Part shown: one piece after another, positions 52,485 to 55,980 of the stretch
Layout: every line of letters starts with the position of its first letter
Position numbering within the stretch: position 1 is the stretch's first letter
Assembly: GCF_025144145.1 (NCBI RefSeq)
Contig: NZ_CP083546.1
Coordinates: 1,690,501-1,754,500, forward strand
Direction of reading: 5' to 3'
DNA: 64,000 nucleotides
Origin: Leisingera sp. M658
GTDB lineage: Bacteria > Pseudomonadota > Alphaproteobacteria > Rhodobacterales > Rhodobacteraceae
Made by a program: the position numbers and the translations under genes
The notes under the pieces: model-generated
What the model saw: only the letters and a program-made list of their open reading frames with translations
Databases searched by the model: none
What the model was told of the DNA's origin: nothing

Positions 52485-53012
52485 TCAGGCTGCCGGGCGC
52501 AGATCTTCGTCCGGTGCGGCGGCTGCGGCCAGTTCCAGTCCGCCTGCATAAATCACATGCGGGCGGGAAAACTCCAGGATCGTCAGATCCATCATCTGCA
52601 GACCCAGATCACGGATGAATTCGCCATCCACCAGCTCATAGGCCGGCACCACTGCCTGCGGCTGGCCGAACATTGCCTTGGCGCGCCAATCACGGACCAG
52701 GACCCGCTGGTCCCAAGGGACGGTCAGGTCGCTGTCTGCGCGGGTGTCGCCAAGCGATCCGGCAGAAATGCATACGGCTTGCAGCATGGCGCGGCGGGTG
52801 CGGACCGCTTCTACCCGGGCCATGCCCTGGGTGCGGGTGATGAGGCCGCCGCCTGCTTTAACCTCTTCCGCTGCGCGCTCACCCTCGCGGGTCAGTACCA
52901 GGGTGCCGCGCAGCAGGCTGATGTTCTGGCTGCCCTGATACAGGCGCCGGGGCTGTGCTTGGCCGCGCATCGCCAATTGCGCGCGCAAGGCCGCATTACC
53001 AAACGGTTTCAT
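52485..53012 (-). CDS. Hint-domain protein lacking autoprocessing residues
   Basis: This 175-residue protein matches the Hint (hedgehog/intein) module common in Rhodobacteraceae: RGTLVLTREGERAAEEVKAG, GLITRTQGMARVEAVRTRR, ISAGSLGDTRADSDLTVPW, DQRVLVRD. In the canonical module the first residue is Cys (CFxPGT); here the equivalent position is SLLRGT, and the P-x-H-R motif reads PWDQR. Both residues required for splicing or cleavage are therefore missing. The ATG at 53012 is preferred over a longer reading. Function is unknown; it may only be a structural relic. Confidence 0.75.
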   Translation of the reverse strand: MKPFGNAALRAQLAMRGQAQPRRLYQGSQNISLLRGTLVLTREGERAAEEVKAGGGLITRTQGMARVEAVRTRRAMLQAVCISAGSLGDTRADSDLTVPWDQRVLVRDWRAKAMFGQPQAVVPAYELVDGEFIRDLGLQMMDLTILEFSRPHVIYAGGLELAAAAAPDEDLRPAA

Positions 53013-53228
53013 GTTGTTACTCGCTCTGTCTGCCTCAGACTTTTTTGTGAATCTATGCCAGAACCGGATTCCAGGCCCAGCCTTTTCCGGCGAATGCCTG
53101 CCCATTGTTGCAATTATGCGGACGGATTGTTGCTGTTTTGCACAGGGCGCCCGAGGACGCGTTTTCCGCTCGCATCCGCCGCTGTCCTTTGATAATCACC
53201 GCGTCACACAAAGCATTTTTGTGTGCGT

Positions 53229-53313: not shown

Positions 53314-53593
53314 GATTGATTTTACGGGTAAATTTCTACAAACTCAGCGCGGCGAGTGTTCTGCGCTATGTTTTGTACTCTTGATCATGTTCTTGTTATG
53401 TTCTGGCGCGGCCGGGCGGTCTTGGATAGCTGCCTTTGCTTAGCCTGTTCTCATCCCAGCGGGTGGCAGGATCGACCCCAAGTGCCGGATCCTGCGAGGT
53501 GGGCGAACGGCAGCTTTGGCAAAATTCCTGGTACGCTGCATCGCTTGTTCCGAAACGATCCCCGGATCATTTAATTGAGGCCGGTCAACAGGT

Positions 53594-54274
53594 TCAGGGC
53601 GGCTCTACCCCAAACAGGTTGCGCTCTTTGGCCAGATAGGCGAGGCGCGCGGTTGACTTGCAGCCGAACTTTTGCCGCATCCGCAGAAAACTGGTTTTCA
53701 CTGCTGATAAAGAAAGCGAAAATTGCTCTGCGATCTCATCATAAGACATCTCCTGCTGGATATGCAGGCGCAGCATCTCCAGTTCTTTCCCGGAAAGGGA
53801 CGGGGGTGGAAGCAGCGAGTCAAAAAACTCGGTGACAACCATGCTCAGCCTGCGCATCTCGTTATCCGAAAGCTCCCTGTCCTGCCGGGAAACAAACACC
53901 ATTGATCTTTTTGATCCCGTCAGAGCCGCAAAGGCAGCGCCATATACCAGACCGTACCGCTGAGACTTTTCGAGTATCTGCAGAGGGTCGGGCAGCTGAA
54001 TGGCCGACCAGCGTATGGCGCCTTCGTTCTTCAGCGCCCAATTGAATACAGGGTCATGAAGGAAGTAGTTTTCCCGGTCATACTGTTCCTTCCATTTTTC
54101 GTGGAAGGAACATTCAAAGTGCTCATACCCCATGATTGAAAAGTTGACCATAAGGGTGAAACCCGTGGTGCTTACTTCGTTGATCGCGGATCTGCAGGCC
54201 GAAAAAGCCTCGGCAATCTTTGTGCTGTTTGCTCCGTCCGAGGGCAGATTCGTTGTAATCACAGATTTTGGCAT
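53594..54274 (-). CDS. LuxR-family quorum-sensing regulator
   Basis: This 226-residue protein has an N-terminal autoinducer-binding domain and a C-terminal LuxR HTH. AHL-contact residues align with TraR numbering: W57 and Y61 in EKWKEQYDREN, D70-P71 in FLHDPVFNW, and W85 in AIRWS. The HTH includes LSGKELEMLRLH and EIAEQFSLSLSAVKTSFLRM; the usual glycine of the turn is Glu (QQEMS). It is divergent from the luxI-type gene, with the shared 203-base region carrying a dyad array. The likely role is an AHL-responsive transcription factor. GGAAGG precedes the start. Confidence 0.92.
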   Translation of the reverse strand: MPKSVITTNLPSDGANSTKIAEAFSACRSAINEVSTTGFTLMVNFSIMGYEHFECSFHEKWKEQYDRENYFLHDPVFNWALKNEGAIRWSAIQLPDPLQILEKSQRYGLVYGAAFAALTGSKRSMVFVSRQDRELSDNEMRRLSMVVTEFFDSLLPPPSLSGKELEMLRLHIQQEMSYDEIAEQFSLSLSAVKTSFLRMRQKFGCKSTARLAYLAKERNLFGVEPP

Positions 54275-54299
54275 CTCAACCTTCCACCCCGAATGACTT

Positions 54300-54376
54300 G
54301 CGACTTAAGTCTCACTGCCGGCAACCTTGGTTGTCTTGCCCGCAACCTAGGTCGCATTTGATGTGACCAGAGTTGC
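54300..54376. promoter_or_regulatory. Array of four 14-bp dyads at exact 21-bp spacing
   Basis: Cores start at 54300, 54321, 54342 and 54363: GCGACTTAAGTCTC, GCAACCTTGGTTGT, GCAACCTAGGTCGC and GTGACCAGAGTTGC. They share GCRACCTWGGTYGC, which is close to a palindrome. The spacing is 21 bases each time, two helical turns, so all sites face the same side. They occupy the luxR-luxI intergenic region. They look like binding sites for the LuxR-type protein, but this is inference. The Y in the consensus is C or T and R is A or G. Confidence 0.72.
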
Positions 54377-54390
54377 AAATAGAATGCAAC
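54372..54390. repeat. GTTGC-N9-GCAAC inverted repeat overlapping the last dyad
   Basis: This inverted repeat extends the fourth dyad's right arm to a further GCAAC half-site at 54386. It may be an additional, weaker binding position in the luxI promoter region. Confidence 0.45.
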
Positions 54391-54477
54391 AGTCAGGTAG
54401 TTGTGGACAGACGAAAATCTACCCTTAGGTGTAATTTCTGCGCAGGGAAGGTCGAAACCTGTACTGGAGATACATTT

Positions 54478-55146
54478 ATGCAAAACGGATACGCCAGGAG
54501 CGAGGCCAAGGCCCGGACAGGTATTGAAACTATGGTTGTCCGGTTTGAGCCGGTGCGGCTGCCAAAGTCACTGAGAAGTCCAGATCAGGATGTGCTGGAC
54601 GCCTTTATGTCGTTGCGCAAGAGCGTGTTTGCGGACGGCAAAAACTGGCGCGTGTGGTTGTCCTGCCGAAGCGATCTGGATCAATACGATCATCTGGACG
54701 CCTACTACATTATCGCATTTGATCCTGCCACAGGCGAAGCGCTGGCCGGTGCGAGGCTGCTGCGCACAGATCGCGGGGGCCGCCATCCAGGCAGATCCGA
54801 AATGACTTATATGGTGCGTGATGCGGTCCGCGGCATGCTTCCCGGGCTGCCCGCGGACTTGTGTGATGAAGAGCCGCCGTGCGATCCCGCGGTCTGGGAA
54901 CTTACCAGGTTTGCATCGAATGGTGCCGCGGGAGCAGGGCAGCTGGTGTTGCAGCGGCTGCGGACATTCCTGCAGGAGCTGGGCGGAGAACGTTTCGTGT
55001 TTCTGTCTCCGCCGGTTGTCGCACGGCTGGCCAAGTCCTCAGGCTTTGCAAATGTCGTCCCGCTTGGCCCGCTCAGAGGCGATCAAAACGGCAAGTACCG
55101 TGTTTATTCTGCCGATGTGCCCCAGCCAGGAAGCAGCGAAGCGTGA
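54478..55146 (+). CDS. LuxI-family acyl-homoserine lactone synthase
   Basis: This 222-residue enzyme makes N-acyl-homoserine lactone from S-adenosylmethionine and acyl-ACP. Family residues are visible: LRKSVFADGKNW (Arg, Phe, Trp), SDLDQYD with both aspartates, ARLLRTD, and VWELTRFASNG with the Glu/Arg pair. The position usually occupied by Glu before DQYD is Leu. The ATG at 54478 has GGAGA eight bases upstream; an upstream in-frame start at 54373 would run through the operator region. It is divergent from the luxR gene, and a small ORF overlaps its stop. Acyl chain length cannot be read from sequence. Confidence 0.9.
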   Translation: MQNGYARSEAKARTGIETMVVRFEPVRLPKSLRSPDQDVLDAFMSLRKSVFADGKNWRVWLSCRSDLDQYDHLDAYYIIAFDPATGEALAGARLLRTDRGGRHPGRSEMTYMVRDAVRGMLPGLPADLCDEEPPCDPAVWELTRFASNGAAGAGQLVLQRLRTFLQELGGERFVFLSPPVVARLAKSSGFANVVPLGPLRGDQNGKYRVYSADVPQPGSSEA

Positions 55147-55475
55147 AGAGCTTTCTGTTTTTCCGCAGACAGCACCACCACGACGGCACTCACGGCCCCA
55201 GACGGAAATCCGAGCACTCCCGCATGTCAAAGATTAACACTCAGCAAAGTATTTCCGACTGGCGCATCCTGTCCGAGCTTCAGGGCATCCCGCGGGCGTC
55301 TCAATTCGTCATGATGGGCGGCGAAGTCAGGCTGGTGCGCGGGGAACAGACAGCTGCGCCCGAATGCCGGTGGTTAGTTCAGCTGCACGGGTTTTCCGCA
55401 CGCGGCGCCACATTGCGCGATGCGCTGGATAGCTGGATAGTGATAGCTGGACTAAGCCCCTTCGGCATGCCGTAA
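55143..55475 (+). CDS. Unknown small protein coupled to luxI-type gene
   Basis: This 110-residue ORF begins with a GTG that overlaps the luxI stop (GTGA), the usual sign of translational coupling, with AGGAAGC about ten bases upstream. A basic leader with a His run (FRRQHHHDGTHGPRRK) precedes a compact domain (WRILSELQGIPRASQFVMMG, CRWLVQLHGFSARGATLRDAL, DSWIVIAGLSPFGMP). I know no matching family. An in-frame ATG at 55224 would give 83 residues. Its coupling suggests a part in AHL synthesis or response, but nothing in the sequence proves it. Confidence 0.55.
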   Translation: MKSFLFFRRQHHHDGTHGPRRKSEHSRMSKINTQQSISDWRILSELQGIPRASQFVMMGGEVRLVRGEQTAAPECRWLVQLHGFSARGATLRDALDSWIVIAGLSPFGMP

Positions 55476-55980
55476 GCGCTGGCCCGGCGTTCCAAGCGCA
55501 TCGCCTTGGAACAGGCTGGCCGCGGATGGCGCAGGCATTCCGGAAACCACGCCGCGCAGCGGCTCTAGCTGGATCTGATCGCTTGGGTTCAAGGCGCAGG
55601 TTGGAAGATCTGATCCTTGCGGGACGCAGCGCACTGAATTGCCTCGTTTGTCCGGGACTTTTTTTGCCGGACTCCGCTGCGCTGTTCTGTGCGAAAATGA
55701 ATGCAGTATTGAGCGTGTGCGCAGGGTTGCAGAAATTGCATGCCCCCTCTGAGCCTAGTGATTGGGTGAAAGTGACCTTTTTCACCTAACGCATTGCCCA
55801 TAGGCGGTTTCTTGCAGGCTTAAAGTTGCAGTAGGCAGAAAACCGCCTATTCATTTCTCCTGATCCCGGGGTGAATTTTCAACCCTGAAGGGGCGGAAAA
55901 ACGCGTGATAGCTCCTGGCCCAAGCGGCGGTCTCAGGGATGGAGAGACATGCTGCTGACGGAACAGGAGACTTGAAGAAA
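55476..55980. other. Noncoding region with three inverted repeats
   Basis: This 505-base gap contains no supported gene. It holds GTTCCAAG-N8-CTTGGAAC (55489-55512), GGTGAAA-N8-TTTCACC (55765-55786) and the 11-base pair ATAGGCGGTTT/AAACCGCCTAT (55800-55810 and 55840-55850) around a 29-base loop. The last two lie upstream of the porin and could be regulatory. None has a T-tract. Confidence 0.55.

Follow-up and report, generated by a model that had tools for sequence, protein, structure and literature searches.

The luxR-luxI locus and its intergenic region

The analysed window, a 64-kb stretch of the genome of Leisingera sp. M658 (G000), contains a luxR-type and a luxI-type gene in divergent orientation (Table 1), and the 203-bp gap between them (54275-54477) is where an earlier note on this DNA had placed a row of palindrome-like elements, a location that our gene calls support. 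The luxR-type product matches both the autoinducer-binding domain (PF03472, 58.4 bits, cut-off 23) and the GerE-type helix-turn-helix (HTH) domain (PF00196, 27.8 bits, cut-off 23.5), and its HTH also scores above the Pfam cut-off for sigma-70 region 4 (PF08281, 27.0 vs 25.7), while the LuxI-type protein reaches 26.2 bits for Autoind_synth (PF00765, cut-off 24). The residues W57, Y61, D70, P71 and W85, the signature of the signal pocket of TraR, have equivalents at identical spacing in our protein when aligned by eye (W61, Y65, D74, P75 and W89), and these are unchanged in two further sequences. With both domains and the pocket residues present, the gene product is predicted to be a LuxR-type AHL receptor, which would bind AHL and DNA as a dimer.

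A structure model of this protein, for which the alignment had two rows, is reliable for the HTH only (residues 161-220, pLDDT 72-94 in blocks of ten), the remainder being mostly below a pLDDT of 50. The modelled HTH matched GerE (1fse, Z 12.3, rmsd 1.4, 67 aligned residues) and RhlR (7r3j) at an equal Z of 12.3, and DNA-bound TraR (1l3l) at Z 11.6 (rmsd 1.7, 72 aligned residues); as modelled, the HTH is intact and GerE-like. Alignment with family members, for which the mis-framed rows L067 and L086 were ignored, placed one additional residue ahead of the second helix in our protein, and its recognition helix reads SLSAVKTSFLRMRQKF, compared with SESTVNFHLKNIQKKF in redesigned RhlR. As a plausibility argument, a recognition helix this divergent would be compatible with a divergent box. 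Two further reading frames lie close by: a short open frame directly after luxI (55224-55475, start MSKINTQQSISDW), with a near-identical frame in the relative G014, and a gene for a Hint-domain protein (52485-53105; PF13403, 72.1 bits), which matches no further Pfam family at E 0.001 and adjoins a tRNA-Leu gene.

Table 1. Features of the luxR-luxI locus of Leisingera sp. M658, in window coordinates
Feature	Position	Strand	Sequence	Remarks
luxR-array-luxI block	53578..55466			about 1.9 kb; also present in G011 and G019, in other genomic contexts
luxR-type gene	53594..54274	-		226 aa; Pfam autoinducer-binding domain and GerE-type HTH
Candidate luxR -10	54293..54298	-	AGTCAT	very weak, placed by eye and symmetry; AATCAT, AAACAT in relatives
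Site 1	54300..54313		GCGACTTAAGTCTC	6/7 dyad pairs; would overlap putative luxR core promoter
Site 2	54321..54334		GCAACCTTGGTTGT	5/7 dyad pairs
Site 3	54342..54355		GCAACCTAGGTCGC	6/7 dyad pairs; top cross-lineage matrix score in G000, G014 and G011
Putative luxI -35	54358..54363	+	TTGATG	consensus match; CTGATG (weaker) in G011 and G019
Site 4	54363..54376		GTGACCAGAGTTGC	3/7 dyad pairs; bottom matrix score in 4/4 genomes
Putative luxI -10	54380..54385	+	TAGAAT	consensus match; TAGCAT, TAGTAT in G011 and G019
luxI-type AHL synthase gene	54478..55146	+		222 aa; ATG at 54478, stop at 55146

Four phased dyads between luxR and luxI

Four 14-mers lie in the gap with their starts exactly 21 bp apart (Table 1), so the positions and the period given in the earlier note are correct. 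As 21 bp corresponds to two helical turns at 10.5 bp, the centres of all four sites fall on one face of the DNA, which the note had also claimed. At site 4, with its three matching pairs, the dyad is limited to the outer G..C and an AC..GT core. Of 5000 dinucleotide shuffles made from the 203-bp gap, two reached the observed sum of dyad pairs at the best period, and none attained the observed score for dyad symmetry combined with mutual similarity (112 observed, 91 for the top shuffle). By the same score the array ranked first in the 64-kb window over periods of 14-40 (112 vs 98 for the runner-up), this being a post-hoc test since the finding itself had guided the choice of 14-mers in four copies. 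Tandem Repeats Finder reported nothing on the array.

The array has exactly four sites: in cross-lineage matrix scoring, slots 1-4 scored +13.9 to +20.1, and the three adjoining slots on either side were all negative (-10.6 to -32.3; -10.6 to -25.4 for the slots one and two periods out). Periods 17-25 were tried as well, and the four-site sum was positive at 21 alone. A weak site-like fifth 14-mer was noted at the start of the luxI coding sequence (54526-54539; matrix score 10.7-11.9 in all four genomes that carry the pair), which is out of register with the array and may be a by-product of the coding sequence. The luxI leader further contains a dyad GGTAG-N18-CTACC (54396-54423) that is kept in all four relatives, and an RNA hairpin in this leader was not supported by folding (z-score -0.96).

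Conservation in the genus

LuxI was found at 85% identity or more in 4 of the 21 genomes of the genus, the source genome included. These four (G000 and its relatives G014, G011 and G019) also have LuxR at 93% identity or above, and G006 carries a broken remnant of the luxR 3' end. The next LuxI outside the genus is 38-41% identical (394 family genomes; 389 relatives), and a class-wide LuxI search at E 1e-28 matched one of 385 genomes, which was Leisingera sp. M658 itself.

Both the period and the cores are kept in all four orthologous gaps, the comparison on which the earlier note had staked its proposal. All four gaps measure 203 bp, and because there are no indels in any of them the conserved period is not independent evidence by itself; the test lies in the pattern of substitutions. 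Among the 16 sites of the four genomes, G1, A4, C5, G10 and T11 are invariant (16/16) and C14 is found in 15, and the framework GYRACYNNRGTYGC is retained through 18-19 between-lineage substitutions. Identity between the lineages is 79-82% in the sites (44-46 of 56 bases), clearly above the spacers (13-14/21, 62-67%) and the luxR side of the gap (15-17/26, 58-65%), but only somewhat above the luxI side (72-75/101, 71-74%).

Scores of 63.8-68.4 were obtained when a dyad-symmetric matrix built from one lineage was used to score the array of the other. Random mutation of the array, simulated with changes matched in number and type and with equal mutability across all 77 positions, gave means of 25.7-32.5 and reached the observed value in 0-2 of 20000 runs in each of the eight comparisons. 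An earlier simulation with a framework from all four genomes gave 1-6 of 20000, a less fair version since the test data had gone into the framework. The array with its four sites is thus conserved under substitution, in an evolutionary sample that is small because the four genomes are two close pairs.

The earlier note had also described the sites as graded in their match to the consensus. Ordered from site 1 to site 4, the dyad pairs (of 7) are 6, 5, 6 and 3 in G000, 6, 6, 6 and 3 in G014, 4, 4, 4 and 4 in G011, and 5, 5, 4 and 5 in G019, so that a grading by dyad count is absent from the last two. By matrix score, site 4 is lowest in all four genomes and site 3 highest in three, and it is in this weak form that a grading of the sites appears to be conserved.

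The array moves with the luxR-luxI pair

In G000 and G014 the gene pair is flanked by the tRNA-Leu gene on one side and by a porin gene on the other, next to the trigger-factor gene. G011 carries it at another location and G019 at yet another, and the 17-kb stretches that were compared have just 1,879 bp in common. The block common to the window and G011 spans 53507-55560 (82%), and that common to the window and G019 spans 53578-55466 (82%). The block thus occurs in three genomic contexts in four genomes (L120, L121, L122; L-numbers denote genomic loci), with luxR, the array, luxI and short flanks in common. The array is tied to the luxR-luxI pair because the block is inherited together and apart from its neighbours, and of the sequence evidence for the array serving this pair, their joint movement is the strongest. 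As only luxR, the array, luxI and short flanks are common to the three contexts, the cognate regulator would most simply be the LuxR-type protein itself. Together with the luxR remnant in G006, the three contexts suggest a mobile or repeatedly relocated quorum-sensing cassette. Comparison of the block ends revealed nothing shared beyond 10 exact bases, and a search of the plasmid collection gave no match.

Searches for similar arrays

Within the source genome, two adjacent cores at a 21-bp distance were found here and in two scattered matches, against three matches for the reversed control. A three-core pattern matched 11 of 244 genomes of relatives, four of which are the genomes with the luxR-array-luxI block; the reversed control matched 10 genomes, which places the other seven at chance level. 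In six of these seven (all except G469, which has no locus) there was no luxR or luxI relative at the match, and the pattern was absent from the other 17 genomes of the genus.

Single matches to the 14-mer framework, counted per strand and with the array included, numbered 15, 16, 21 and 27 in G000, G014, G011 and G019, respectively, below the 37, 41, 41 and 53 of the reversed-pattern control, and these counts support no wider regulon. Of the eight framework places outside the array in G000, seven are in open frames of at least 90 codons and one lies outside these (L099, contig C5).

We also applied the array test to the regions upstream of 38 luxR-type genes, among them the remnant in G006, and of 35 luxI-type genes; these are a part of the matches, and the start was taken from the match and not from a mapped codon. 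Each of our four loci was at 0/60 shuffles for the luxR regions and 0/200 for the luxI regions, and no comparable luxR-luxI array was seen in the 34 other luxR-type and 31 other luxI-type regions. Sixty shuffles are a loose test, as several luxR-type regions with weak look-alike units also gave 0/60: L044, L085, L086 and L091 with four units at periods of 23, 19, 24 and 18, respectively, and L068 with three units at a period of 36. A best period of 21 with three units was obtained for L043 (26/60) and L090 (2/60). None of the 31 other luxI regions was at 0/200, the lowest being L025 (1/200, period 34), followed by L016 (5/200, period 29) and L027 (5/200, period 21 with unlike units); L020 had a period of 21 at 61/200. 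A 21-bp array with four units (0/60) was present in L048 of the source genome, beside an HTH_3 gene (XRE-type, PF01381), where three dyads near GGACTTTTAAGTTC at a 21-bp period (2673-2728, G000:C1) resemble a phage-type operator array.

Comparison with known quorum-sensing systems

Several systems share features with this locus. In the lux operon, a 20-bp box is centred at -42.5 in the account excerpted from PMC3376562, and like the lux and tra boxes our array would be a dyad operator upstream of luxI beside a LuxR-type gene; a centre near -42.5 would follow if the consensus promoter described below is real. However, those systems have a single dyad of 18-22 bp, whereas there are four 14-bp dyads of another sequence here. 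The earlier note had set the array apart from the single 20-bp lux box. No canonical lux or tra box is common to the four gaps: in each of the four genomes, between 206 and 300 of 300 mononucleotide shuffles did as well as the best matches to the lux consensuses, the minimal CT-N12-AG occurred in two of the four at chance level, and a tra-box-like 12/18 match at site 4 was found in two genomes (reached by 11 and 10 of 300 shuffles) and not in the other two. Passages of PMC3376562 describe ExpR2 of Pectobacterium at rsmA as a LuxR-type protein that likewise needs more than one site, there a 20-mer box and a second 16-mer site at a target gene, in contrast to four sites in exact register between luxR and luxI. 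Cooperative binding has been described for QscR at one of its two described sites (in excerpts from the set PMC5014874, PMC3376562, PMC4211393, PMC3907830, PMC9769649, PMC11655674, PMC7856919 and PMC3824088).

Among roseobacters, SsaRI of Ruegeria sp. KLH11 (topology A) is also a luxRI pair beside the trigger-factor gene (extracts of PMC3907830 and PMC3824088). The upstream activation sequence of ssaI is described in part of PMC3907830 as having no known lux box and as not being an inverted repeat, and topology A is defined in a section of PMC3824088 by a trigger-factor gene downstream of luxR-luxI and a LuxI similarity above 63% within the group. In 20 tig neighbourhoods, one of them shortened by a contig end, we found luxR-luxI in four (L102, L103, L104, L108), tandem pairs in other genera that run in the same direction and lie on the opposite side of tig; we took these for topology A on the basis of the published description, not of SsaRI sequences. 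Ours is a divergent pair, and its LuxI is 26-28% identical to those of L102-L104 and 32% to that of L108, and an identity of our pair with SsaRI or topology A was consequently rejected.

GtaR and CerM, from the Rhodobacteraceae like our pair, are LuxR-type regulators that also have palindromic sites, but the motif reported for CerM, TNT(N5)AAGACA(N2)T, differs from the framework of our sites, and the passages concerned mention no tandem array (PMC11655674). Phage-type XRE repressor arrays, of which L048 is a case in the same genome, likewise place a series of equally spaced dyads between divergent genes; they differ in that the luxR-luxI block has no XRE-type gene among its recognised genes and has another core. 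No luxR-luxI gap with four phased sites for LuxR was described in the titles and abstract starts of the literature searched, an absence that is weak as this literature was mostly non-subscription. The layout of the array is unusual, but the kind of system is known.

Putative promoters and proposed mode of regulation

The gap contains a sole putative sigma-70-like promoter, TTGATG-16-TAGAAT at 54358-54385 (shuffle mean 0.1). If this consensus promoter is real and transcription starts 6-7 bases past the -10 box, the putative luxI start would put the centre of site 3 at about -42.5 to -43.5, where lux boxes usually sit, and site 4 would lie between the putative -35 and -10 boxes, its first base being the last base of the -35 hexamer.

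We consider it likely that the array consists of operators of the neighbouring LuxR-type protein, a claim common to an activating and a repressing mode of action. For the binding of LuxR, its cooperative nature, the two promoters and whether the genes are activated or repressed, we infer the following. One LuxR dimer would bind each 14-bp dyad, and the two-turn spacing would line up neighbouring dimers along one DNA face, where they could aid each other's binding. The row of sites fills the gap between the two divergent promoters. The earlier note had proposed such cooperative binding of LuxR dimers, perhaps giving an ultrasensitive switch, and its interpretation is partly supported by the conserved period and cores and by the joint movement of array and gene pair. 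AHL-bound LuxR at site 3, at about -43, would activate luxI, and site 2 is placed alike for luxR; sites 1 and 4 would overlap the core promoters, and full occupancy may limit or shut both genes. This combination of activation via the inner sites and self-limitation via the outer sites is the reading that we favour, with a confidence that stays a little under even. Against it stand the mismatch of the 14-bp dyad with the canonical boxes, the poor luxR -10 and the weaker luxI -35 of G011 and G019, the small evolutionary sample, the framework matches that fall below their control, and an HTH that also passes the cut-off for sigma-70 region 4; sites 1 and 4 over the putative core promoters would fit plain repression just as well. 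A more elaborate version, in which a mobile quorum-sensing cassette carries a single assembly of four LuxR dimers on a non-canonical box of 14 bp, with the inner sites switching on cooperatively and the weaker outer sites switching off at higher signal to give a band-pass, is speculative and rather doubtful.

The strongest alternative retains the same operators and the same LuxR, and lets the signal-free protein repress both promoters until AHL releases it. The position of sites 1 and 4 on the putative core promoters and the span of four operators across both promoters form a repressor-like layout, for which the HTH_3 gene beside the 21-bp-period dyad array of L048 offers a parallel in the same genome, and GtaR of Rhodobacter capsulatus represses ctrA without autoinducer, directly or indirectly, according to passages of PMC11655674. 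Site 3, however, would lie near -43 with a weak -35 box, the usual position of an activator, and the same passages hold most LuxR regulators to be mainly activators. We rate repression as less probable than activation through the inner sites.

That the array is bound by some other DNA-binding protein of the host would fit the difference between the 14-bp dyad and known lux boxes, and a recognition helix in LuxR unlike that of the RhlR variants, but such a protein is an improbable candidate when luxR-luxI and the array have travelled together into three contexts and the three-core pattern is missing from the other 17 genomes of the genus, which we assume to share most host regulators. Least credible by far is a degenerate tandem duplication that lacks any regulatory function, retained by recent common descent, as the tandem 21-bp units, the restriction to two close lineages and the gap free of indels might suggest: 18-19 substitutions keep the dyad framework where random mutation does so in 0-2 of 20000 runs, and between-lineage identity is 79-82% in the sites against 62-67% in the spacers.

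Implications for quorum sensing in the roseobacters

A review of 2014 states, in the part available (PMC3907830), that one LuxR-type binding site alone had been experimentally defined in roseobacters. Against this background, the array of Leisingera sp. M658 predicts a new box, GYRACYNNRGTYGC, with an exact multiplicity and phasing and in a compact, movable block. Were the doubtful band-pass version of LuxR action true, both promoters would show a sharp, self-limiting response to the signal. The locus also makes it testable whether phased multiple operators steepen quorum switches.
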